The notes below the pieces were generated by a model that searched no databases, was not told where the DNA came from, and saw only the letters and a list, made by a program, of their open reading frames with translations. Made by a program: the position numbers and the translations under genes. From an uncultured Thermogutta sp. (GTDB lineage Bacteria > Planctomycetota > Planctomycetia > Pirellulales > Thermoguttaceae): a stretch of 40,182 nucleotides of DNA. Numbering within the stretch: the stretch's first letter is position 1; each line of letters opens with the position of its first letter. Of this stretch, positions 2,969 to 16,560 are shown one piece after another. Location of the stretch: positions 1 through 40,182 of the forward strand of contig CAKZMM010000127.1 in NCBI GenBank assembly GCA_937128505.1, in the 5' to 3' direction.

Positions 2969-4186
2969 TCAATTCTCCGCAGTTCTTAAGCGGCAAGTTG
3001 CAGCCCATGCTTCCAACATCTGAAACTGCTTATGAAAGTCGTGCTCCTCCACGCCGTAAGGGCTTTTGAAGAAACTGGCCAAAAAACCCAGAGGCCCCTT
3101 TTCGCCACATCGAACCGCCAAGTCGGTCCAGCGGGCCAAATCGAGCACTAGCGGAGCCGCGAGCACCGAATCGCATCCCTGCCAAATGAACTGCAAGATC
3201 ATTTTCGTGCCGAAAAACCCGGCGAAATGGATATGGTCCCAGGCCGTTTTCCAATCCCCGAGGCTCTCAATGTATTCGATCGAAACATGAGTCTGAGGTT
3301 TATACCCTAGCACTCCTTTAACAACGCGATCCTTGCTCGAGACCTTCGCCGCTTTGTTTCGGGGATCGTCCAACACTTTGCCGTCCAGATTCCCGAAGAT
3401 ATTGTGCCCCACCCAACTGAGCACTTGAAGATTCCGTTGAGCAAAAAGCGGTGCCAAAACGCTTTTGAGAAGGGTTTCCCCGGTCTTGCCGTCGCAACCC
3501 ATATATGCGGTGCCGCAAGACTCGGCCAATTGCTGCACCGCCGAAAGTGCGGGCCCAATGGAGGGAGTGAAATTGAGATACGCACATCCAGCGCGGATCG
3601 CTGCAATCGCATACAGGGTGCTTGCGGGTACGGGGCTCGGCTGCCGCTGTTTAAGACGACTTTCCAATGCGTTCCAATCTGGCGGAATAAGATGCGGATC
3701 CACCGGCGGCTCCGTGGAGGCCACATTAATAACGATGGTCCTCTCAATGTCACTTTCGGCCGAAAATGTCTGCAAATCGGACTCAATCCGCTCGATGGCA
3801 TCCCAAGGGTATTCTTCCCGGGGTACCTGATGACTTGCCAGGGATTCGATCGTTGGCCCCACTCCAATCAGCGTTCCCCAACGAATTCGCTCTTCGGCTT
3901 TTTCGAGGTCTTCGCGGCAAAGCTCAACCAGCTCAGTAGGAAAGGCTCCCGTTTGCCGTGCGAATTGCTGTAATCCATCAGCGAGGCGAGTATCGCGCAC
4001 TTCGTGCCCGCCCACGACAAACTGCGCCCAATCGGCGAAATCGAGCCCCACGAATTGGGGCAAACTGCTCACCAATCCCCAATTGGGGACAGCCCTTCTT
4101 TTTAGGGCGGCCAGTCCGAGAATAGCCGTGCCCCCCACACCGCCGCGAGCACCCACCAACCATAGTCCGATTTTTCCCGATGGCAT
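2969..4186 (-). CDS. ino1: Inositol-3-phosphate synthase (myo-inositol-1-phosphate synthase)
   Basis: Converts D-glucose 6-phosphate to 1D-myo-inositol 3-phosphate in an NAD-dependent oxidation, aldol cyclisation and reduction, the first step of inositol synthesis, in the cytoplasm. The N-terminus has the Rossmann motif GLWLVGARGGVGG. The family's conserved blocks follow: YLNFTPSIGPA, GCDGKTGETLLKSVLAP, GHNIFGNLDGKVL, KDRVVKGVLGY, and WDHIHFAGFFGTKM, which is close to the catalytic-domain signature. From ATG 4186 it is 405 residues, a normal length for the shorter prokaryotic type and well below the roughly 530 of eukaryotic enzymes. An upstream TTG at 4216 is in frame, but the Rossmann strand begins directly after the ATG, so I prefer the ATG. 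The gene is divergent from the aminotransferase. Inositol in a planctomycete could feed inositol lipids or compatible solutes; that is inference. Confidence 0.88.
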   Translation of the reverse strand: MPSGKIGLWLVGARGGVGGTAILGLAALKRRAVPNWGLVSSLPQFVGLDFADWAQFVVGGHEVRDTRLADGLQQFARQTGAFPTELVELCREDLEKAEERIRWGTLIGVGPTIESLASHQVPREEYPWDAIERIESDLQTFSAESDIERTIVINVASTEPPVDPHLIPPDWNALESRLKQRQPSPVPASTLYAIAAIRAGCAYLNFTPSIGPALSAVQQLAESCGTAYMGCDGKTGETLLKSVLAPLFAQRNLQVLSWVGHNIFGNLDGKVLDDPRNKAAKVSSKDRVVKGVLGYKPQTHVSIEYIESLGDWKTAWDHIHFAGFFGTKMILQFIWQGCDSVLAAPLVLDLARWTDLAVRCGEKGPLGFLASFFKSPYGVEEHDFHKQFQMLEAWAATCRLRTAEN

Positions 4187-4670
4187 TGGCTCATTCTTCA
4201 ACGTTTGCTGTCTCAAGCCTGAAAACCGCTTCTTTCCAAAAGATAATCTGCTTGCACAGGTTCAGAATCCCATGCAAGATGTTTAAATAACCTGTGCCTG
4301 GGATGCACTCCCTTGGCCTCCGGGGAATGACGATTTTTTCAAATACGCCCAAAAGATTACACGCTACAACACTTCAAATTGGGGCCGGCAAGTTGCGCGC
4401 ATCTTGTCAAAAAAATCGGCTGATTTTACACTTAAGGACCTGTCAGAGTAATTTGCCGCCAAGAAAGTATGCGGCTGTTGGACATTTGGCTCCCGGTGGG
4501 CGCGAGAATTTTTCGTAATCGCGGCAATTCAGTGTCAGTATTTGCAATCTCATTTGAGAGTGATTTTGATCAACACAAAAAGCGCGGTCAACTGAAGCAA
4601 CTTTCCGCTCGCAAAATGTTGTAAGTCGTATCACTTCTGGGGTAACCTTAGAGCCGTTCTGGAGTTGATT
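4187..4670. promoter_or_regulatory. Divergent intergenic region between ino1 and the aminotransferase
   Basis: About 480 bases that must hold the promoters of both divergently transcribed genes. I see no clear operator palindrome or sigma-70 pair that I would defend. The only decisive element is GGAG at 4661-4664, placed six bases before the ATG at 4671. Confidence 0.4.
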
Positions 4671-5870
4671 ATGGCGATGAATGTCTCTCGGCTTGTGCAG
4701 GCGCTCGAGCCCTCCGCAACTTTGGCGATGTCGGCCAAGGCCAAGCAATTAAAAGCAGCCGGCAAGAAGATTCTGGATCTTAGCGTAGGAGAGCCCGATT
4801 TCCCTACGCCGTGGCATATTTGCGAGGCCGCTATCGCGGCTATGAAGGCCGGGCATACCCATTACACAATCGCCAGCGGTATCCCCGAACTGAAAAAAGC
4901 GGTAGCGGACCAATACCGTTCTCGGTATGGGCTAGAGTATGCTCCTTCTCAGGTCGTGATCGCCAATGGAGCAAAACATGCTCTGCATAACGCCTGCACA
5001 TCCCTGCTGAATCCTGAGGACGAAGTGATCATTCCCGCCCCTTACTGGGTTAGCTACTCGGAGCTGGTCAAGCTCACTGGGGCTAGACCCGTGATCGTTC
5101 CCACCGAAGAAGCTCACGGATTCAAACTTACTCCGGAGCAATTTTGTCGGGCTATCACCCCGCGAACCCGGGCCCTATTGCTTTGCAGTCCCTCGAATCC
5201 TACTGGCACCATGTATAGCCCGGAGGAGCTGGGCCAGTTGGCTGACATCGTTTTAGAGCACAATCTGTTTGTAATTTCCGACGAGATTTACGACCAACTT
5301 GTTTACGACGGCTTACCTTTTGCCAGCTTTCCCACGCTACGATCGGGGCTTCAGGAACGGACGATCGTAGTCAACGGAGTAAGCAAGACCTACGCCATGA
5401 CCGGGTGGCGAATTGGCTGGACCTTATCCCCCGAAAACCTCGCCACGGCCATGGGCGACCTCCAAAGCCAGGAAACATCAAACCCATGCAGCATCAGCCA
5501 ATACGCAGCGTTGACGGCGATTACCGGCCCACAAGAGTGCGTGGCGGAGATGCGGGAGCAGTTCGCCCGGCGTCGAAAGTTCGTCCGGGAACGATTGTCT
5601 AAGATACCTCAAATCAGCTTCCCGGAAATGCAAGGAGCCTTCTACGCTTTCGTCAACATCTCTCAATATCTCGGGCGGAATTATGGGCAAGTGCTCATCA
5701 AGGATTCGGCCCAGTGGTGTTTGGAGCTTCTGGCTCAGGAAGGCGTAGCGACGGTGATGGGTTCGGCCTTCGGTGCCGAGGGCTATGTGCGGCTGTCATT
5801 CGCCACGGACTTGGCGACCCTTGAGGAGGCCTTGGATCGAATCGAACGTTTTCTGGGATCGGCTGCTTAG
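4671..5870 (+). CDS. Class I PLP-dependent aminotransferase (aspartate aminotransferase-like)
   Basis: Fold-type I aminotransferase of 399 residues, the usual length. It has the N-terminal LSVGEPDFPTPWHI segment seen in aspartate aminotransferases of subgroup Ib/Ig and the cofactor loop NGAKHAL. It also has the SNPTGT motif, the ISDEIYDQLVYDG motif with the PLP-binding Asp and Tyr, and SKTYAMTGWRIGW with the Schiff-base lysine at about residue 239. The likely reaction is aspartate + 2-oxoglutarate to oxaloacetate + glutamate. Other substrates (alanine, aromatic, prephenate) cannot be excluded from sequence. GGAG at 4661-4664 is correctly spaced for ATG 4671, so the in-frame TTG at 4665 is not the start. 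It stands alone; the neighbour downstream is on the other strand. Confidence 0.9.
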   Translation: MAMNVSRLVQALEPSATLAMSAKAKQLKAAGKKILDLSVGEPDFPTPWHICEAAIAAMKAGHTHYTIASGIPELKKAVADQYRSRYGLEYAPSQVVIANGAKHALHNACTSLLNPEDEVIIPAPYWVSYSELVKLTGARPVIVPTEEAHGFKLTPEQFCRAITPRTRALLLCSPSNPTGTMYSPEELGQLADIVLEHNLFVISDEIYDQLVYDGLPFASFPTLRSGLQERTIVVNGVSKTYAMTGWRIGWTLSPENLATAMGDLQSQETSNPCSISQYAALTAITGPQECVAEMREQFARRRKFVRERLSKIPQISFPEMQGAFYAFVNISQYLGRNYGQVLIKDSAQWCLELLAQEGVATVMGSAFGAEGYVRLSFATDLATLEEALDRIERFLGSAA

Positions 5871-5945
5871 TACTCGGGTTAGTATTCGGGTGATCCAAGC
5901 GGCGGGGTCTTTTCGAGCCGGAGCTGCGGCCCGGTAACATCCCCA

Positions 5946-6302
5946 TTACTCGGAACTAACCACCACTTCGTCGGTAGGATCGAATTTCGGCACGACGATA
6001 TTGAGAATGGTCATCGAGCCAACGGCACGGTGAATAACACCCGGCGGTATCAAGATCACTAAACCGGGGCGAAGTTCCACCCGTTGACCGTCGAGCTCCA
6101 AATAGCTGCCTTCTTGACATTCGATTACGAAGTAGGTCTCGGTGAGCCGCCGGTGGTAGTGCGCTTGGGCGGCCCCTTGAATCCGCGTGCGATGTACGCT
6201 CAAGGGGGCCTCGGGCAAATCGACGAACGCTCGTCGGGCCTCACCGCATGGACAGGTAACGGGTTTCAACCGGTCAAAATCTACGGCTAAAAAGCGTCCC
6301 AT
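5946..6302 (-). CDS. Small single-domain cupin protein
   Basis: A 118-residue protein with one cupin (cupin_2) barrel. Motif 1 is seen as AHYHRRLTETYFVIECQEG, supplying His, His and Glu metal ligands, and motif 2 as PPGVIHRAV with the last His. A metal-binding fold is therefore likely; the substrate is unknown. Small cupins of this kind include isomerases, dioxygenases and sugar-binding regulators, and the sequence does not separate these. It faces the aminotransferase tail-to-tail with a 75-bp gap. No Shine-Dalgarno is visible before ATG 6302. Confidence 0.75.
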   Translation of the reverse strand: MGRFLAVDFDRLKPVTCPCGEARRAFVDLPEAPLSVHRTRIQGAAQAHYHRRLTETYFVIECQEGSYLELDGQRVELRPGLVILIPPGVIHRAVGSMTILNIVVPKFDPTDEVVVSSE

Positions 6303-6402
6303 GGGAAAGGAGTCTCTTTTTTCTCAATTGTCCCTTGAAACAAAAGTATTGGTCGCAGGAATTGTTGCAGGTTTTGCAGAGATAATCCTCAATTGATGCG
6401 GT

Positions 6403-6430
6403 ACGCCTATAGGATTACGCCTATAGGATT
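6403..6430. repeat. Perfect 14-bp tandem duplication
   Basis: The unit ACGCCTATAGGATT occurs at 6403-6416 and immediately again at 6417-6430 without a mismatch. It is non-coding, 100-130 bp upstream of the cupin gene start. Confidence 0.9.
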
Positions 6431-6841
6431 AGGGAAAAATCATTCACGGATCTAGACCCGCCCGGCAAATTGTCTCTCGCAGCCCTCCCCGCAAATTCTT
6501 CCTATTGGCCTTCCCCGCAAAAGCCGCCCCTCATTAATGCTTACCTAACTTGTGCGATTCTTCATCTTGTGTTTTAGCCAGCAAGTGAGATTCTCCCCAT
6601 CATGAGGCCCCCAAAGTGTACCGGTGGAATGCAGTGTGAGAAATCTAAAAACCCCCCACTATTAGGGTACCGGATCATACTCATTCGGGAATTCACAAGC
6701 AACTTTTCTTCCTTTTGCCCACCTTACCAGATTTCACGCGATATTCCGCATATTCTGCCAAGTTTTGCGGTTTAGGACGGCAGTTTTTGCAATTAGGCAA
6801 GTGTAAAAAACGTGCAGATTCAAGCGCCTGAGCTCGTTGCG

Positions 6842-6944
6842 GACCCCGTTAATTGGTACGCCTAATCGGCACTCGCTTTAAAGGATGTCTTACAGGAGAG
6901 GCACGAAGTCCCTTTCCGGCCGCTGACCCCATCAATTGGTACGC
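6842..6944. repeat. Imperfect 20-bp direct repeat, 83 bp apart
   Basis: GACCCC(G/A)T(T/C)AATTGGTACGC appears at 6842-6861 and 6925-6944 with 18 of 20 matches. The core AATTGGTACGC is shared exactly. A related GCGGTACGCC lies at 6399. It could be a binding site pair or a degraded repeat. Confidence 0.55.
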
Positions 6945-7345
6945 AATTTGCTCAAGAGCTTCTTCCTCTGAAGTGCTTAAATGGGTCATGGAGGGCGCAT
7001 TGCCCAACCCATCGAGAGAATAACGAAACGATCAGCAGAAAGCGGTACAAAACCATCGGAGCCGAGAGGGAAGTTCCGCAAGGTCGCGGAGCGGAACGGC
7101 AACTTGATCCTGATATCACGGCGAAAAACACTTTCCACGGAATCATTACGATTTAAAAGATCTTTCTGGCTCTCATCGTTGCGAAAAAGATCGTCGGGCT
7201 AAGCTCCTTTTTCGGATCCGTCATCACAGGTTTTGGTCGTAGGGGTTTGACGAGGCATGCCTTTCCCGGAAAAAATCGGCTAATACCCGGTTTCGTTGGT
7301 GGGTCGCGTTATCCTGGTGCATTGGGCAAATTGGGGTTATAAGCG

Positions 7346-8209
7346 TTGAGCTGCACGAATCAAACGGAGGAAACACAGATTCTGAGCACTCAGACAACCG
7401 TACAGGAAACGTCTCGTCCGATCTCGGGGGATCACTCACCTATTGGTTCCGCCCAGAAGGCCGCTGTTGAGGTTCGTCAACTCGTGAAGCATTTTCCCGA
7501 CGCTCGTCATGGGGTGCGGGTGGCGGTTGCGGGAATTAGCTTCTCGGCGTCTTTCGGCGAGATTTTCGGTCTTTTGGGGCCGAATGGGGCAGGCAAAACG
7601 ACCACCTTGCGGATCCTGAGCACGGTGCTCAAACCCACCGCCGGCTCTGCCCGGATCATAGGCTACGATGTGCTGGCCCAGCCCGAAGAAGTTCGCCGAC
7701 GAATCGGCTTTGTTTCCATCAGCACCGCGGTGTACGATCGAATGACCGCCTGGGAAATGGTGGAGCATTTCGGCCTTCTTTACGGCATCCCCAAGCACGA
7801 ACTCCACCGCCGGATGGTGGAGCTTTTTGACCGGCTGAGAATGAACGATTTTCGCGACCTCCTCGGTGGGAAGATGTCTTCTGGGATGCGTCAGAAGGTC
7901 TCCATTGCGCGTGCCCTGGTCCATGATCCGCCGGTGCTCATTTTTGACGAACCCACGACCGGACTAGATGTGTTGGCAGCCCGAGCTGTGCTGGAACTCA
8001 TCGCGGGTCTCCGCTCACAGGGTAAATGCATCCTGTTTTCTACGCATATTATGCGGGAGGCCGAGAAACTTTGCGATCGTTTGGTGATTATCCACCGCGG
8101 TCGCATCCTAGCAGAGGGAACTCGAAGCGAACTCGCCCGAGAACACGCTCAGGACGATCTCGAAGAGTTATTCTTCGACCTAATCACTCGCGATGAGTCG
8201 AACCGCTGA
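7346..8209 (+). CDS. ABC transporter ATP-binding protein, NatA-type
   Basis: ATPase subunit of an ABC-2 type exporter. Walker [11 protein letters not shown] (Lys about residue 84), the signature [14 protein letters not shown], Walker [13 protein letters not shown] and the H-loop STHIM are all intact. The C-terminal [21 protein letters not shown] is typical of NatA/drug-resistance ATPases. The start is unclear. The given start is a TTG without a ribosome site, while GGAGG at 7366-7370 is followed at proper spacing only by ATT (7379) and CTG (7382), both in frame. The first downstream GTG (7484) would cut into the domain. No permease gene follows, so the membrane partner must be elsewhere. The product acts at the cytoplasmic face of the membrane; the substrate is unknown. 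Confidence 0.88.
7366..7370 (+). promoter_or_regulatory. Strong Shine-Dalgarno pointing at a non-canonical start
   Basis: GGAGG sits eight bases before an in-frame ATT (7379) and eleven before CTG (7382) of the ABC ATPase gene. No ATG, GTG or TTG lies at usable spacing. It suggests initiation at ATT, as known for infC, or at CTG. Confidence 0.45.
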
Positions 8210-8526
8210 AAAACTTTTGCGCTTCGATCCGCTTCAGACCGCTCCGAACGCCGGAGATTCCTGAAAAACGCTCCCGAAAATTCCGAAAAACGATAAAGCT
8301 GCACGGATTCGTGCCGCGCTTTTGTCTTTGGTGCCGCTGTCTGCCTCTTCCCTCTGCCTCTTCCCGCGGATATCCATCTGCCACCGCACCGCCTGCAAGC
8401 CATTTAAATTTCTTCCGATCGCGCCGAGGAACTGTGCCGGCACTCGGCAAAGCTTTGGATCGCGTCGCAATAGCCCCGAAATGCCCGTTGAGTTTTATCT
8501 TTTTTGCGGCGGCATGCTTAATGCTT

Positions 8527-8564
8527 ACAGCCTTGTCAAATTTCTACAGCCTTGCCAAATTTCT
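8527..8564. repeat. 19-bp tandem duplication, one mismatch
   Basis: ACAGCCTTG(T/C)CAAATTTCT at 8527-8545 is followed directly by a second copy at 8546-8564, 18 of 19 identical. Confidence 0.85.
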
Positions 8565-8713
8565 TCGAGAGGAATATTGGAGGGCTAAGATTTTACGGGC
8601 CCGCCCAAGGCAATCTTGAACCGAACCCAAAAGCGTTGGGATTCCCGCCTGCATCCTGAGGGGCAAGCGGCCGAAATCTTCCGTGGTCTAAACAGCCGGA
8701 CCGCCTGGCCGAA

Positions 8714-8748
8714 TCTACTTTGTAAAGCTTTGTAAAGTAGACTTTTTT
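8714..8748 (+). terminator. Possible rho-independent terminator
   Basis: TCTACTTT (8714-8721) pairs with AAAGTAGA (8734-8741) around a 12-nt loop, followed by CTTTTTT (8742-8748). The stem is AT-rich and 500 bp downstream of the ABC gene, so strength is doubtful. The loop also forms a TTTGTAAAG direct duplication. Confidence 0.35.
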
Positions 8749-9331
8749 GAAGGACCTCCGTGGTTAAGCACTCCGGCGAAGGTTACTTACGGAGTTGGCA
8801 CGTGGGTTTGCCCCGCAAATTCAATTTCATCGGCGCCGAAGGACTTTCCGAGTTATTAGGAAGGTTTTGTAAACCACCGGTGTTACCGCTTTGTCGCCAA
8901 GAAGCAACTGTATGGTCGTCAATAATCAACCTGGGGTCTTAGGGCTTTGTGCTGTAATAGACAGGGGGCTTGAAGGTTTCGTGCGTCCGGTATCGGCTGA
9001 AGGAGCAGTTCCATTCCGAGAGTATTGGCGAACAACAGAATCAGCAAAACACCCAATTAACAACCGGCAGACTCAGCAAACTGTTGAGAAAACCAGAAGA
9101 GTAAAGAGGTAGAAACTAACCGCGCTTTAGATCTGGAATTTACCGGTTCAACGGGCGTTCAAGACGCAGAAACGAGCGAACACTGGCCGGATGAACGCAG
9201 AATTTGTTTGTTCGGAAAAGCAAACTCGCTGTTAGTTCGAAAAAGCAAGCCTGAGTGATATTTGCCCCGACGCAACCGCAATAAGCAAGTTCTCCATTGC
9301 AACATAGGACTTGCCGCAAGGGATAGGCAAC

Positions 9332-11248
9332 ATGGACTCCCCCCAAGTGATTCTGGAGCAACTTGTTGACCGGACAAGCCAGCTTTACAGCTTACCGGGC
9401 GTGGCGATCAAAGTGCTCCAACTTGTAGAAGACCCCAAGTCGGATGTATCCCAATTGAAGTCTGTCCTTGAGACGGACCCCGCCCTGACCGCGAAAATTC
9501 TTCGTGTGGTGAATAGTGCGCTATTCGGACTTAGTTCTGCCGTCTCCGATTTGAACCAGGCCCTTGCGCTCCTTGGGGGCAAACCCCTAAAACTTTTGGT
9601 CTTGGGATTTAGCCTTCCGGAGCGGCTATTCTCGAATTTGGAAAGCGATCTTTTAATTCGATATTGGCGGCACACACTGACCAAGGCGGTGGCGGCCCGA
9701 GAACTGGCGACGGCATGTAAGAGCCGCAATGCGGACGAGGCCTTCATCGCGGCGATGCTCCAAGATATAGGGATCATGGTGTTAATCCAGCAATTGGGGG
9801 AGCCCTATTGCCGGTTCTTGCGTACGGTTTGGGCGCACGGTGCTTGCCCCACCGATTGGGAACTTCGGACCCTTCAATTCTCCCACGTGGAGCTATCGGC
9901 CCGGCTACTCGAGCGCTGGGGATTGCCGCCGGCCATCGTGTCGGCAATCCGTGGCCAACCGTATCCACCCACCCGCGGCGGCGAGCAATCAGGCGACAGA
10001 GCAGCCGGCACACAGTCCCCTCATTCAGCAGAAGCCCATGAGCCCTGGATTCCCCGGGCTTCTCTTTTGGCAGCCATCGTCGCGGCAAGCGAAGTCATCG
10101 CAAATCATGTCCTCGCTACTACGAACGAGAAAACAGCAGAAAACACACCGCCCCTGGATCTCCAGCGATTGAGTCGCTTAGGCCTCACCGCGGAGCAAGT
10201 AAGTCGTCTCCTTCAAACCCTTCAACAAAAAGTGGAACAACTTGCGGAAATCCTGGCCGTTCCCATCGGAGCGCCAGAAAGTCTTTATCCGGTCATTCAT
10301 CGAGCTCAGCAGCTCCTGGCGCAAACAGCAGCGGATGCAGCCGCGGCTTTGCTCCATTTGAGAACCGAAGCACCGCCATCAGCATGCCTAAGCTTTGGTC
10401 GCGAACACGGGGAAGATTTCCGGGCGTTGCCTACGCGGGTACGTGCCCCTTCTGTCCCACCGGAAAATATCCGGGAATCGGGATCGCAAGCTCCGGGGCA
10501 AGGGCCGGCTTTGTTTCCGCTCTCTGATGAGACCTTCCCAACGGTCCAAGATGGCCAACTTCGGGCCGAAGATACTCCGTCGGGGTGGGTTGACGCACTC
10601 TTCAGCTCCCCGATGCAGTCGCGCGATGGGAAGTCGCACCCGGGCCACGTCAGTCTCGCAGCGGAAGAGGATGGATTTTCCCACCCGGCTAAGCACTTTC
10701 CACAAAGGGAGGTCGCTGCGAGGAAAACCGCATGGTGCTTTGGGGGGAATTCTGCGAATTCCATGGCAACAGAAGTCGAGCCGGGGCTATTGGGAGCACT
10801 AACTGCCGCCATTCTCGCCTGCCGACAGGCGCGGCAGAGTCTCTCCCTTCTCCTTGCTGAGCTTCACGGAGTACAGGAAGTCGCCACCCATTTGGGCTTA
10901 AACCGCGTCAACGACCTCAGAGTGTTGCTTGAGCGGATTTGCCGATCGCAAATTTCGCATCTTGGGCGCATCTGCCCTTACAGCGAATTCGGCCTGGGCA
11001 TGATTTTGCCGGAGGCCGACCGGCAAGCCGCGACCGATGTGGCCCATCAGATTCTGCGGCATTGGCGCGAGTCCACCCCGCGGGACCCGGTTTCCGGCCA
11101 TCCCCTGGTGGGAGTTGCCGTGGGACTGGCCTCGGTCAGGACGCCTGCCAAAACCCTGTACTCAGAGGACATGCTGCAAAAGGCAGAACGGTGTCTATTC
11201 GGTTCGCACGCCGCCGGAGGTGGGGTTCTCAAATCGATCGAATTATGA
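9332..11248 (+). CDS. HDOD-domain signalling protein with degenerate GGDEF-like C-terminus
   Basis: A cytoplasmic protein of 638 residues from ATG 9332; the upstream TTG at 9311 has no better support. Residues about 8-225 form an HDOD domain: LPSLPGV-like SLPGVAIKVLQL, ETDPALTAKILRVVNSALFG, AFIAAMLQDIGIMVL and FSHVELSARLLERWGLP. HDOD domains resemble HD-GYP phosphodiesterases but lack the catalytic HD pair and act in signalling. A long low-complexity linker (about 330-480) follows. The last about 155 residues resemble a GGDEF fold: an RVNDLRVLLERICR helix, YSEFGLGMILP in the place of GGDEFxxxLP, and a C-terminal LYSEDMLQKAERCLF like the usual ALYxAKxxGR helix. The catalytic GG(D/E)EF is missing, so cyclic-di-GMP synthesis is unlikely. 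The GGDEF relationship is my inference from pattern. Confidence 0.8.
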   Translation: MDSPQVILEQLVDRTSQLYSLPGVAIKVLQLVEDPKSDVSQLKSVLETDPALTAKILRVVNSALFGLSSAVSDLNQALALLGGKPLKLLVLGFSLPERLFSNLESDLLIRYWRHTLTKAVAARELATACKSRNADEAFIAAMLQDIGIMVLIQQLGEPYCRFLRTVWAHGACPTDWELRTLQFSHVELSARLLERWGLPPAIVSAIRGQPYPPTRGGEQSGDRAAGTQSPHSAEAHEPWIPRASLLAAIVAASEVIANHVLATTNEKTAENTPPLDLQRLSRLGLTAEQVSRLLQTLQQKVEQLAEILAVPIGAPESLYPVIHRAQQLLAQTAADAAAALLHLRTEAPPSACLSFGREHGEDFRALPTRVRAPSVPPENIRESGSQAPGQGPALFPLSDETFPTVQDGQLRAEDTPSGWVDALFSSPMQSRDGKSHPGHVSLAAEEDGFSHPAKHFPQREVAARKTAWCFGGNSANSMATEVEPGLLGALTAAILACRQARQSLSLLLAELHGVQEVATHLGLNRVNDLRVLLERICRSQISHLGRICPYSEFGLGMILPEADRQAATDVAHQILRHWRESTPRDPVSGHPLVGVAVGLASVRTPAKTLYSEDMLQKAERCLFGSHAAGGGVLKSIEL

Positions 11249-13176
11249 CGAATTATCCCAAGCGCGTTTGAAACTTTTTCGTGTGCCGCTCAAGGTCTTC
11301 TGGGGATTCCCTTTCCCCTATCAATACCTTATTTCGCTGTAGCAACAACCTGTTCCGCCGTAGCACGTTCCCGAAAGCCGACATACCCATGTTCACCACC
11401 GATATAACGGGATCGTCGTGGGTGCGGAATTGCTCGGATATCCAAGAGAGATTGCCGTAGTGGTTTCTCATGATGCCTATTGAGGCACTCGGTTTTTCCC
11501 TTAAACCGGATGGTTCCCGGCAGCTCATCTATCTGTAATGCATCCCGGTTTTGGGCTTGGTGCGGCCCGAACTTCCGTCTAGTACTCTTTGCTCCCGGTA
11601 ATGCGCAGTGGGAGCGGCTCCATCCTCACTGGCTGCGTGCTGATGCAGTGTGCTGCCTGCGTGGATGAGGAAGGTCCGCAGATTCAATTGCCGCTACTTT
11701 ATTGGATATAGTGCTGCCTGCCTGGATGAGGAGGGTCTGGCTCTGCCGCCCAGGGAATTGATCCGGACGAGGTGCTGCCTGCGTGGATGAGGAGGGTCTG
11801 CCCAATCGCTGAAAGCCCAAGGATAGCGCTCCTCCCGCTTCTACGCGTGGGGAAGGTGTGTCCCCTCGGGGTGGAATTCCCCTTTGGGTCGGCTCCCGCG
11901 TGCATGCATGCGGAGGGTGTCCTGAAGGAAGCTCGATTGAGAACCGCTCATTGTTTCCCACTGCGCGCATGAAATGCATGTTGAAGGATCGACCGAGCGG
12001 AGACAGCCGTATCGCTCCCCCCTCGCTCAAGATGAGGGTCCGTGCCTATCCGCATGCTCGGAACGCTGAACGTGCTCCCTCTCCTAATAAAGACATCATT
12101 TTTCGTCCGAAGTTCACGCAATAATGATCACTTTGTTGGTAATGTCGTTGACCTAACGGCATGCCTGTTAGTGGGTGGGCGAGAGGTTCTCAAGAAAATG
12201 CGGGCGAGAGGTTCCCAAAAAATAAGGGAAAAAGCGGGAGAAACAGGAAAAAAATATAAAAGAGAATGGCACAACAAGAGAAAGTTTGGAAAAGGAAAGT
12301 TCATCTAAATCAAAAACGCGAAAGATTACTGCGGAACTGAGGAATGTTCAGCCATAAGAGTCACCTTCCAGGCAACCGGTCAACCTCCTGAAAAAAACCT
12401 TAGTAAACCCATTTGAAAATTGGCATACGGGACCGAGGGCAAAATTTCGGTTTTCCCTCTCTGTCAAATCTGTGTCAGCGTCAAACCTCAAATTCGCGTC
12501 AGCGGCCCTTTGAAACTCGAAATCAAGACGCTCAAAACCCTCTGCCGATGCGGTGTAACGATCGTCGCTCAGCAGGAATCGCACTGCACCCGTCACCATA
12601 TTTACCGCATTTGTGCAAATCCTGTGTGGAAATCGTCGCTATTCTCGAGAAAAATACTCGGCAATGTTATATTGAGGCAGTTCCTCAGGAATTTGGTGAA
12701 CTCGTCTGAATCCCTTTTACGTCAGCGTGCGGACAAGATGCGGATGTTACCGACAATCCCCTAAGCTTTGTTCCCACAGCCTTTTTGCCCGGCGGAATCC
12801 TACCCGTTTTCCGTTTCTGCAAAATTGTTTCCCCAAAACCTTATCCGGACTTGGGATTGCCTGTCGGCCCCTTTCGCAGCGCGAAGCTCAGCGAGCTCCA
12901 GCCGCATTCTCCTGCACCCCACAGGAGCGTAGCAAAATTTGGCAATCTTGCTTATGATTAAACTGGGGACCCCGGCGATTTAGTCAGGTCGCCCTTAGAT
13001 TCACCCTTTCGAACGCTCCGAGCTTGAACTCCGGGCAGCTTAGCGCGGCGGAACCAGGAGCTTGAAAACACGGAAAGGATAAATTCGGAGCTAACCCCGA
13101 ACTCGTTTCATCGAAGCCGACTTTTTCACAAGCCGTTAGGTCGTAGCCAAATCGTTTTGTGGGCGGAGGGCCGAGT
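11249..13176. other. 1.9-kb gene-free region holding a decayed CRISPR-like array
   Basis: The largest gap in the window. The array at 11590-12043 is listed separately. From 12160 to 12310 the sequence turns purine-rich and lower in GC than its surroundings. No ORF here is credible. Confidence 0.55.
11590..12043 (+). CRISPR. Decayed CRISPR-like array, 29-nt repeats on a 61-bp register
   Basis: Three near-identical 29-nt repeats lie at 11650-11678, 11711-11739 and 11772-11800, all beginning GTGCTGCCTGC and containing TGGATGAGGA or a close variant. Pairwise they differ at one to three positions. They are separated by two unrelated 32-nt sequences (11679-11710, 11740-11771). The period is exactly 61. 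By eye I counted, against copy three shifted by one base, further in-register copies starting at 11590 (15/29), 11833 (16/29), 11894 (21/29), 11955 (15/29) and 12015 (16/29). Copies at 11833 and 11894 match each other at 20/29. Most contain a C-rich left arm and G-rich right arm. A 29/32 geometry is usual for type I-E. No cas gene is in the window, so this would be an orphan, inactive remnant. A minisatellite is the main alternative, but the interval sequences do not resemble one another. Confidence 0.6.
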
Positions 13177-16100
13177 ATGTCGCCTGTTGCTCAGAACGTG
13201 ATTCGCAGACTTGACGCGGTACGTCAGCAGTGGTGGCTTTTCAGCCTGATGACTACCGTCGTTTGGGGCTGTCTAATCTCGGCAAGTACGCTTTTGGCCT
13301 TCATTCTCGCCGATGCTTTATTCCGCTTTCCGCAGGGGGTTTTGCTAACCATTCTGCTGGCTTGGTTGACAATAACGGCGGGGGTTTTCGCCTGGGTAGT
13401 TCGGCGCGTGGGAAGGTTCCATCGTTCGCTGGAGGCGACTGCCCGACGGATTGAGGAAGAATTCCCGGAATTAGGAAGCAATCTCATCAACGCGCTTCAA
13501 CTGGCTTTTGACACCAAGAACGTTAATCGCGATTTCTGCGAAGCGGCGATTGCCGATGCGGCAGCCCGATTATCGCCGGTACATCTCGAGGAGGCAGCTT
13601 ACCGCGAGACGCGATGGCGGCGGTTCCTTTACTGCATGAACACTCCGCGCGATTTCGGCGAGGCTCTTCTCCTTTTCGGATGCGTGTTAGCTTTGGGGAT
13701 CGCGTGCCACTTGCTTTTACCGACGTGGGGCTCTGCCGTAAACCGGCTGATGCAACCATGGGAATATGTGCCGGTACTCGGCTCGGTAAAGATCCTGCAA
13801 GTTCTTCCCGGCGACTCGGAGGTCTTGTTGGGCTCTAGTGCCACTATTGTAGTGGAGATCCTCGATAGTGCAGGCGAAGAGCCGCCGCGGGGTTCGATTT
13901 GGGTGCAAGCGGAAGGTGAAGCCGGCCAGTGGCTCCCGATGGCCCCCGGTGAGATGTACGAAGTGGCGGATAGCTCAGGACACAAGCAGGGGCGAAGGAA
14001 GTATCAATTTGTCATCCCCACGGTTTTGAAGCCGTTGGAATATCGTGTAGAAATCGGCGACTCCCAAAGCCGGATTTATCGGCTGACGGTTCGGGAAAAA
14101 CCCACGGTTTCCGAAGTGGAAGTCACCCTAAATTTCCCGGCATACATGAATCGCTCCCCGCAAACTTTCGTGCAACAAGAGGCTGACTTGGAAGCCCCGC
14201 AATACACTGTGGCGGAGCTCCGGATCCGGGCGACTTCTCCCATTGCGAAAGGCCATCTCGAGGTAGGAGGCGAGGCTTACGCCGGACGAGTAGAGCATCA
14301 CGATCGGGTATTGCGGGTCAATCTGCCGCTGCTTCGTGATGGGACGTTTACCATTCATCTATTCAATGCGGCCGGACACACGGACCCGAATCCGCGTGTC
14401 AACCGCATCAAAGTGATTCCCGACAGTCCGCCCCGCGTGGAGTTGATAGCTCCGCCGCGGCAGGTCACCGCAGCCCCCCGGGCCACCATGCTCGCGACGG
14501 TTCGCGTAGCCGATGATTATGGAGTGGGTCGGGTTCGTCTGGAGATGAAGATCAGAAAACAAGGGGCCGAAAACCCCGGCGATGCGGGCTCGGAAGAGCG
14601 GGCCAGCCTTCTGCATGAGTGGACGAATGTTCCCGGCAACACGGCAGCAGCTTTGCAGCACAGCTTTGCCATTCCCGCGGAGGGGTTGGAGGCAGGGGAC
14701 GTCGTCCTGGTGCGCGCGGTGGCGTGGGACAAGCGGTTCGTCAAGGATTGGGGTTTAGATCTTCGGCCTCAGGAGTCCGCTTCCGCCTGGCACGAAATCC
14801 GAATCGTCGATGCCGAAAAGCAAAAGCAGGAAAAGCTTGCGGAATTGACCAACCTAAGGACGCAAATCTACAGATTGCTGGAAAAGCAGATTCGCGCGAA
14901 TGTGTCGGCGGTCCGCATCGCGACGGGGAAGTCGCTCGAAGATTGCGTGCGGCAAAGTCAGTCGGTCCGCGATCAGCAAGTCGATGTTCAGAAAAGTTGC
15001 TTGGGGGTCATTAAATCGATTCCACCCACCGCCGGCGAGGCGGAGCAGCTCACGAAACGGGTGCTCAACCAGTTGGCCTTCGGGGAGATGTTGGAGGCGG
15101 TAAGCCGGTGCGACGATTTGACCAAACTGAAAGCGTGGGAAGCCTTTGCCGAGCCGGTGGCCGAATTAAGCCGGCTTCAGCAGCGGATTATTGATTCTCT
15201 ACGCAAACTTCTGGACGGCATCCGGCATGCGGAAGCGGAAGTGGTAGGTGAAATAGACCGCCGGGCGGTCGGCGATCTGCCGGATGAGGCGAGAAAGAAA
15301 TTTGAGGATTTGCAAAGCAAGTTGGAAGCTGCATTGGAAGCTCAGAAAAAGGTGATTGAGGCGGCGGAAAACCTGGCGAAAGCCCCCGTCGAGGATTTTG
15401 CCGAGGCCCAGGAGCAGTTGGTCAAGGCCCTGGAGGCAGCCGAGGATGATTGGTCGCGTTTTCTCACCGAATTGAACATGGATTTGAGCAAGCTTCCGGA
15501 GCAGGATTTTGCTAACCCCTCGTTGCTCAAGGAGCTCATTGAAATTCAAACCGAAATCAAAATGGCCGAAGATGCCTTGTTAAAGAAAACCGTCGACATC
15601 GCAGTTCCGCTGGAGCAGCTCGGCTACGAAATGGCCGAGGAATTAAAAACAAATTTCGAAAAGTGGCTCCCGGATACGCCAGATCGCGAGCGATGGAGTC
15701 AAGAGGAATCGTTGACCGATGCCGATAAGGAAGCCCCAATGGCCGAGCTTCCCGGCGAACTTGAGGATTTGATCGGTGAGCTCATGGAAGAGGAGGAGGC
15801 TCTTTTCGATGAGATGGAGGACGTCTCATCAAGTGCAGCCGACTCGTTGGACGCCGGAGCCGGGTGGGATGCGTTGGACGGGCCAATTTCCAACATGAGT
15901 GCTAAAGGGGTCACCGGCAATCGGCTGCCCAACACCAATGAAATCGGAGGGCGTTCGGGCGAGGGGCGGCAGGGAAAATCGAGCGGCGAATTCGTAGGCG
16001 AGGAGGCGGTGGGTAAGGGCGGCAGACGCACGCCAAGCCGGCTAACTCCGGATCCGTATATGCAAGGGCAAATCAAGGATCACAGTCGTGACCCCGTGGG

Positions 16101-16560
16101 CGGGGCCACCGGCGGAGGCAAAGAAAGTGGTGAAGGCGGGGCCGGGCTGGAAGGACCTGCTCCCGCGGACCGGGACCAAAGAGAGCGGAATCGATTAGCC
16201 GGCAAACAGGCCGCTTTGCGAAACAAAGCGGAGGGGATCGATCTTCAGTTCCAAATTATGAATTTCCACCGCACCGACTTGCGGAAGCTGATTGAGCTCA
16301 TGGCTCAGATTGAGCAGGACGTCCGCGCAGGTCGCTATCAGAACGCTTTACGGCAGCGGCAAATCATGCTCGAGGGGTTGAAGAACGTGCAGGATTATGT
16401 GTCAGGCGAATTTCAGATTCGGCGCGATACATCGCTGAACCTCCCCGCCGATATCCAGAAAGAACTCCTAGGAAGCATGCAGGAACCGTCACCGGTCGGC
16501 TGGGAGGAACTCAACCGACAATATTTCGAGCGTCTGGCTACCAGTGGACAATCGCAATAA
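13177..16560 (+). CDS. Very large DUF4175-like membrane-anchored protein
   Basis: An 1127-residue protein. Two hydrophobic helices near the N-terminus (about residues 20-45 and 53-75) and a third at about 162-184 anchor it in the membrane. A long exported region with beta-rich, Ig-like segments follows (for example EVEVTLNFPAYMNR and VADDYGVGRVRLEMKI). Then come long heptad-like helices rich in Glu, Ala, Lys and Leu (about 540-830), an acidic low-complexity stretch (EELMEEEEALFDEMED), a Gly-rich linker, and a final helical segment. The order of three TM segments, then VLGSVKILQVLPGDSEVLLGSS, then coiled coil matches the DUF4175/TIGR02302 type known from alphaproteobacteria and planctomycetes; I assign it by pattern only. 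Function is unknown, probably in the envelope. GGAGGG at 13165-13170 is well placed for ATG 13177, so the upstream GTG (13159) is not needed. Confidence 0.75.
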   Translation: MSPVAQNVIRRLDAVRQQWWLFSLMTTVVWGCLISASTLLAFILADALFRFPQGVLLTILLAWLTITAGVFAWVVRRVGRFHRSLEATARRIEEEFPELGSNLINALQLAFDTKNVNRDFCEAAIADAAARLSPVHLEEAAYRETRWRRFLYCMNTPRDFGEALLLFGCVLALGIACHLLLPTWGSAVNRLMQPWEYVPVLGSVKILQVLPGDSEVLLGSSATIVVEILDSAGEEPPRGSIWVQAEGEAGQWLPMAPGEMYEVADSSGHKQGRRKYQFVIPTVLKPLEYRVEIGDSQSRIYRLTVREKPTVSEVEVTLNFPAYMNRSPQTFVQQEADLEAPQYTVAELRIRATSPIAKGHLEVGGEAYAGRVEHHDRVLRVNLPLLRDGTFTIHLFNAAGHTDPNPRVNRIKVIPDSPPRVELIAPPRQVTAAPRATMLATVRVADDYGVGRVRLEMKIRKQGAENPGDAGSEERASLLHEWTNVPGNTAAALQHSFAIPAEGLEAGDVVLVRAVAWDKRFVKDWGLDLRPQESASAWHEIRIVDAEKQKQEKLAELTNLRTQIYRLLEKQIRANVSAVRIATGKSLEDCVRQSQSVRDQQVDVQKSCLGVIKSIPPTAGEAEQLTKRVLNQLAFGEMLEAVSRCDDLTKLKAWEAFAEPVAELSRLQQRIIDSLRKLLDGIRHAEAEVVGEIDRRAVGDLPDEARKKFEDLQSKLEAALEAQKKVIEAAENLAKAPVEDFAEAQEQLVKALEAAEDDWSRFLTELNMDLSKLPEQDFANPSLLKELIEIQTEIKMAEDALLKKTVDIAVPLEQLGYEMAEELKTNFEKWLPDTPDRERWSQEESLTDADKEAPMAELPGELEDLIGELMEEEEALFDEMEDVSSSAADSLDAGAGWDALDGPISNMSAKGVTGNRLPNTNEIGGRSGEGRQGKSSGEFVGEEAVGKGGRRTPSRLTPDPYMQGQIKDHSRDPVGGATGGGKESGEGGAGLEGPAPADRDQRERNRLAGKQAALRNKAEGIDLQFQIMNFHRTDLRKLIELMAQIEQDVRAGRYQNALRQRQIMLEGLKNVQDYVSGEFQIRRDTSLNLPADIQKELLGSMQEPSPVGWEELNRQYFERLATSGQSQ

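Follow-up and report, generated by a model that had tools for sequence, protein, structure and literature searches.

Must a degenerate array of repeats that stands apart from cas genes be the remnant of a CRISPR system that was lost? The question is raised by a locus in a 40,182-nucleotide stretch of DNA from an uncultured Thermogutta sp. (contig CAKZMM010000127.1 of assembly GCA_937128505.1), referred to here as the window, in which a preliminary description had recognized a decaying, CRISPR-like array in the intergenic region 11249-13158. Neither of the genes that flank this region overlaps the array (Table 1), and the region itself contains no reading frame longer than 134 aa; two frames within it were scanned in Pfam and gave no match. 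Among 60 genomes searched, the array-bearing intergenic DNA aligns to none except its own, and no empty site was seen. In G001 and G002, two genomes of the same genus, the right-hand neighbour gene is preceded upstream by a different gene, and no array is apparent by eye at this syntenic place. A scan of the window at Rfam gathering scores returned nothing. Positions 12177-12222 hold a 21-nt direct repeat (GGGCGAGAGGTTCTCAAGAAA) spaced at 25 nt, which has no relation to the 61-bp array.

The three near-identical repeats from which the locus was recognized are real: units R0, R1 and R2 have 26-28 of 29 bases in common pairwise and follow one another at a period of exactly 61 bp. Drifting copies had been described on both sides of them, and those on the right hold up. 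Scored by their best match to the unit consensus with a slack of ±3 nt, the four right-hand units reach p values of 0.004 (R3), below 1e-4 (R4), 0.015 (R5) and 0.0016 (R6). On a type I-E profile, a weight matrix built from six intact I-E repeats of this genome and five relatives, the corresponding values are 0.015, 0.022, 0.14 and 0.014, and we grade R5 as weak because of its profile value. Over positions 11801-12110, the self-identity at a lag of 61 is 91 of 249 as compared with 63.4 ± 7.0 in shuffled sequence, and none of 2000 shuffles reaches 91. The left-hand copy, placed near 11590, fails. At 11589 it matches the consensus at 14/29 positions (p = 0.0066 when the position is fixed, 0.045 when slack is allowed), the I-E profile gives it no support (p = 0.52), and the segment 11521-11649 displays no clear lag-61 self-identity (p = 0.16). 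The best copies thus sit at one end of the array, and not in its middle as had been thought. Greedy extension with a lax threshold reaches 11526 and 12074; these units were not counted, and the supported array comprises seven units from 11650 to 12041. Its six intervals are mutually unrelated, with 4-12 matches of 30-32 over the 15 pairs compared.

Table 1. Features of the window array and its surroundings, in window coordinates.
Feature	Positions	Strand	Remarks
HDOD-domain gene, left flank, outside array	9311..11248	+	
Claimed left copy, not supported	11589..11617	+	
Unit R0	11650..11677	+	28 nt; leftmost supported copy
Interval 1	11678..11710	+	33 nt; 31 nt of it occur once in own genome (≤3 mismatches)
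Unit R1	11711..11738	+	
Interval 2	11739..11771	+	33 nt; 31 nt of it occur once in own genome (≤3 mismatches)
Unit R2	11772..11799	+	
Unit R3, decayed	11832..11859	+	16/29 vs consensus; 21/28 vs unit R4
Unit R4, decayed	11893..11920	+	20/29 vs consensus
Unit R5, decayed and weak	11954..11981	+	15/29 vs consensus; I-E profile p 0.14
Unit R6, decayed	12014..12041	+	17/29 vs consensus
Large gene, right flank, outside array	13159..16560	+	1133 aa; without Pfam match

The geometry of the locus is that of a type I-E array, with regular repeats of 28-29 nt and unrelated intervals of 32-33 nt. Across about 80,000 window positions on both strands, the I-E profile ranks 11650 first, 11772 sixth and 11711 seventh. 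A covariance model of nine repeats (model R1), three of them from the second C102 array described below, places the window array second in its list for the window without significance (E = 2.1), and the array is absent from the 13 hits that this model gave genome-wide, with 150 out of 1048 candidates scored. Hits in the window to a further covariance model (model R2) prove nothing, since this model includes window units. The earlier assignment to type I-E is supported by the geometry and by the first rank of 11650 on the profile, but not by the covariance model. A viral source for the intervals, which would have counted as support in the earlier reading, did not emerge. Two window intervals gave best E values of 0.3 and 3 against phage records, which is the level of chance; three compared with IMG/VR using 22-nt seeds gave two matches, 23/32 and 20/32 overall, again about what chance would give; and two intervals of fresher arrays elsewhere in the genome had no exact 21-nt match in IMG/VR. 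In phage records, IMG/VR and the genome itself, no insert found a convincing source.

The array had been supposed to have lost its cas genes, which is wrong for the genome as a whole. Contig C102 carries a complete type I-E operon (cas3, cse1, cse2, cas6e, cas7e, cas5e, cas1e and cas2e), in which the matches of the predicted cas1e and cas2e cover their models almost completely, together with an intact array of three repeats at the contig end, whose repeat differs from the window unit. The operon is not adjacent to the window array, as it sits on this other contig. Directly upstream of its cas3 gene we observed a second degenerate array (L015, G000:C102, 10250-10451) with units like GTGGTATCCGCGCGGATAGGGATGATC, three of them at 61 bp and a fourth 52 bp further, in a position that recalls creA loci. 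Another CRISPR type is represented by three repeats of ~37 nt (CGCGCAATTCGCGGGATCATTTGGATGAGATTGAAAC) at ~12100-12290 of L016 (G000:C122:19001-34745), on a contig with a further cas1. For comparison, ordinary trailer decay is seen in an intact I-E array of G001 (L088, G001:C8 array, contig 21-902), where the right arm shows one and three changes, respectively, in the two repeats closest to the trailer.

The preliminary description had taken recurrence of the 61-bp unit across the genome without a link to cas genes as a point against a CRISPR array, and here the outcome is divided: the geometry recurs, but the repeat sequence does not. At up to three mismatches, the window unit has no copy in its own genome beyond the three known ones, so that the search for the same repeat elsewhere came back empty; it also has no exact match in GTDB genome contigs, among which its own record may be absent. 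Covariance model R1 led instead to a 61-bp array with a different repeat on contig C6, and model R2 to further 61-bp arrays on C105 and C89. Contig C6 holds three different lag-61 arrays within 5 kb (L056, G000:C6:8001-17039, 4043-8990), one of them with three identical 28-mers. Because these targeted models had found further arrays with other repeats, we scanned the genome in a model-free manner. The blind sample consisted of the first 20 kb, or the whole if shorter, of 40 contigs taken by number (C1-C41 without C6, whose arrays were known beforehand); one piece made up entirely of N (L120) was excluded, and 38 usable pieces totalling 557,501 nt, or 10% of the genome, were scanned. In this sample, pairs of similar 28-mers form 24 loci at a lag of 61, whereas 20 other lags give 2.9 on average and 8 at most. 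When the sample is split in two, the count of three-unit arrays at lag 61 is 9 for one half (249,865 nt) and 6 for the other (307,636 nt), and no lag in 40-58 or 64-90 gives more than 2 in the first half or 3 in the second; lags 59, 60, 62 and 63 partly pick up these same arrays, since the spacing was allowed to differ by one. One of these arrays (L200:16310) was later dropped because it repeats at lag 60 with a block of 58 nt, and is still included in the 15 three-unit arrays and in the 19 profile-scored arrays below. By linear scaling of the pair count, we estimate ~210 loci per genome, or ~85 when the count is restricted to three-unit arrays that lie away from contig ends.

The dispersed loci share a common plan. 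When 14-nt seeds identical at lag 61 are extended (14 seeds in 11 loci, the window included), the repeated block has a median length of 28 and a range of 20-32, which gives the family a plan of 28 + 33. Half of the lag-61 loci (12/24) possess only two units at 17/28 or better. In one of them (L196, G000:C28, 2443-2531), a perfect 28/28 duplication surrounds 33 bp with nothing similar beyond, and this looks like one fresh integration event. The repeats are specific to each locus: over 25 arrays, targeted ones included, mean unit identity is 22.2/28 within a locus and 12.6 between loci, with 10.5 for random 28-mers. The units have a weak motif in common, its left arm rich in C and its right arm rich in G, with variable ends. 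On the I-E profile, the 24 lag-61 loci score 0.63 versus -9.08 for 58 loci at other lags (p = 5e-9), and 19 blind three-unit arrays (15 from this genome, 4 from G001) stand out from random sites (p = 2e-8), from shuffles of their own composition (p = 2e-8) and from pairs at other lags (p = 8e-8). The resemblance to a CRISPR repeat thus holds for the loci as a group and not for every locus, single-locus scores lying near chance (p above 0.05) for 10/24. Thirteen of 26 arrays overlap no reading frame of at least 120 aa, and neither ten array-overlapping frames nor the overlapping frame of the window have a match in Pfam.

The blind arrays are enriched at contig ends, with 6/14 (L113, L116, L121, L123, L196 and L204) within 500 bp of an end, where 5.4% would be expected (p = 5e-5). 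This may mean that cells of the sequenced population differ at these places, or it may reflect where assemblies break.

Relatives served as controls. Two genomes of the same genus carry cas7e. In G001, of the same genus, 373,344 nt, from which its intact array (L137) was excluded, yielded 5 lag-61 loci versus 0.15 per other lag; on the I-E profile, the scores of the G001 units are not significantly higher than those of its 3 loci at other lags (p = 0.20). In G002, also of the genus and with cas7e, the count is 1 versus 0.4 per other lag (399,991 nt). Of two genomes from the same family, G019, which has cas7e, contains 3 loci versus 2.5 per other lag (363,502 nt), and G026, which lacks it, contains 0 versus 0.45 (400,000 nt); sampling was within the single contig for G026 and at the starts of contigs for the others. 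The phenomenon, then, is strong in the present genome, weaker in G001 and not clear in G002 and G019, and since the latter two have I-E without a clear excess, a type I-E system alone does not predict lag-61 loci.

Type I-E Cas1-Cas2 duplicates a 28-bp target and inserts 33 bp, and a duplication and insert of these sizes are observed at the scattered sites. We consider it probable that the window array belongs to a large set of small neo-CRISPR arrays seeded by off-target integration of the type I-E Cas1-Cas2. In such a process, Cas1-Cas2 encoded on the other contig would be the agent, placing 33-bp fragments, presumably derived from invaders, into places in the chromosome with a weak likeness to a CRISPR repeat, rich in C in one arm, in GC in the middle and in G in the other arm. 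With each insertion the 28-bp site would be copied, which would create a repeat specific to that locus; later insertions would copy the adjacent unit, which would leave neighbours most alike, and older units would then drift through disuse. The window array would have started by one such integration and grown to about seven units, of which the three on the left would be the youngest.

The dispersed loci, the window array among them, could also be relics of ordinary arrays from several past I-E systems, with their cas genes lost and their repeats decayed. The I-E-like palindromic motif among the units fits this origin, as does unit R0, which matches the active repeat at 17/29 places, and orphan arrays are already known, as a review describes (PMC8616872). 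The relationships among units within a locus argue against it. A uniform array that decays should show star-like relationships, whereas adjacent units are more alike than distant ones in 16/16 arrays with at least four units, by a mean difference of 2.92 of 28 that 0/10,000 permutations reach; star-like simulations passed through the same procedure (n = 300) give 0.37 ± 0.37 with a maximum of 1.27. One rule was applied over the 25 listed arrays, 16 of which have four or more units; registers were picked by similarity to neighbours and the lax threshold adds doubtful end units, effects that the simulation covers in part. Mantel tests on single arrays are not significant (p = 0.08, 0.13 and 0.42, the third with a misplaced unit). 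The loci are also many, with a different repeat at each, and relics fit poorly with the two-unit loci, the 28/28 identity and the similarity of neighbours. Nor do the flanks of the 25 arrays reveal a shared leader (six matches at E ≤ 0.1, only one below 0.03), and the leader of the active array matches none of them; against the window it gives one 11-nt match (E = 0.28). A tblastn search of the window with eight C102 proteins, cas2 not among them, found no cas remnant (best E = 0.053). We regard an origin of the family as relics as rather unlikely.

Some arrays, that of the window included, might instead be retained as crRNA-like guides whose degenerate repeats steer Cascade, as in CreTA. Degenerate ectopic repeats do guide Cascade in that system (PMC9458426), and the I-E effector genes are present here in trans. 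Such guides would need to be reconciled with the loss of the Cas6e hairpin: for the three good units, 133, 57 and 144 of 200 shuffles fold as well, as compared with 0/200 for the active repeat, and the decayed unit R4 folds somewhat better than its shuffles (16 of 200 as good). Together with the dispersal and drift of the loci, which seem unselected, this makes the guide function improbable. A tandem or mobile element of 61-bp period unrelated to CRISPR would account for the dispersal and is very improbable, given that the window intervals are unrelated, that the repeats differ by locus and that the units bear an I-E-like motif.

Seeding by off-target integration has a precedent. Nivala, Shipman and Church reportedly described, in Nat Microbiol in 2018, 28-bp duplications around 33-bp inserts at non-CRISPR sites resembling the native locus, chiefly when Cas1-Cas2 of E. 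coli was overexpressed, together with a few natural cases. The loci described here are similar in having a 28-bp duplication around a 33-bp insert at repeat-like sites; they differ in that ~85-210 are extrapolated for one natural genome and in that many are multi-unit and drifting. Canonical I-E arrays share with them the 28-29-nt repeat, the 32-33-nt intervals, the presence of I-E cas genes in the genome and, at many loci, a C/G-rich palindromic core, but here the repeats are locus-specific and drifting, no cas genes were found beside the window array, no similarity to the active leader was found, and the good copies of the window array have lost the hairpin. The creA repeats of CreTA are likewise degenerate and outside the main array; the window array, in contrast, has seven units, and no cas genes were found in the window. 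Non-canonical Cas1-Cas2 integration outside arrays has been reported from E. coli, as cited in PMC11788318 and PMC9456107, and a type II Cas1-Cas2 is described in PMC6895254 as having a sequence preference at off-target sites too. In the titles and opening lines of abstracts that our searches of the open literature turned up, we found no report of a genome with large numbers of such arrays; because subscription papers fall mostly outside that search, this is weak evidence of novelty.

We further suggest, quite tentatively, that arrays are born continually in this lineage, with the I-E integrase seeding hundreds of sites, some of which grow into a dispersed and possibly active memory, and with the enrichment at contig ends reflecting differences from cell to cell. 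How new CRISPR arrays originate is an open question, for which off-target integration has been proposed from laboratory work. If our reading of the window array and its counterparts is correct, a natural genome here displays the whole series of stages, beginning with a lone, perfect 28-bp duplication and ending with long arrays that drift. The process would then be visible in nature, its site preference and growth pattern could be obtained, and comparison of strains would put it to the test. Lone degenerate arrays, in that case, need not be relics of lost cas systems.
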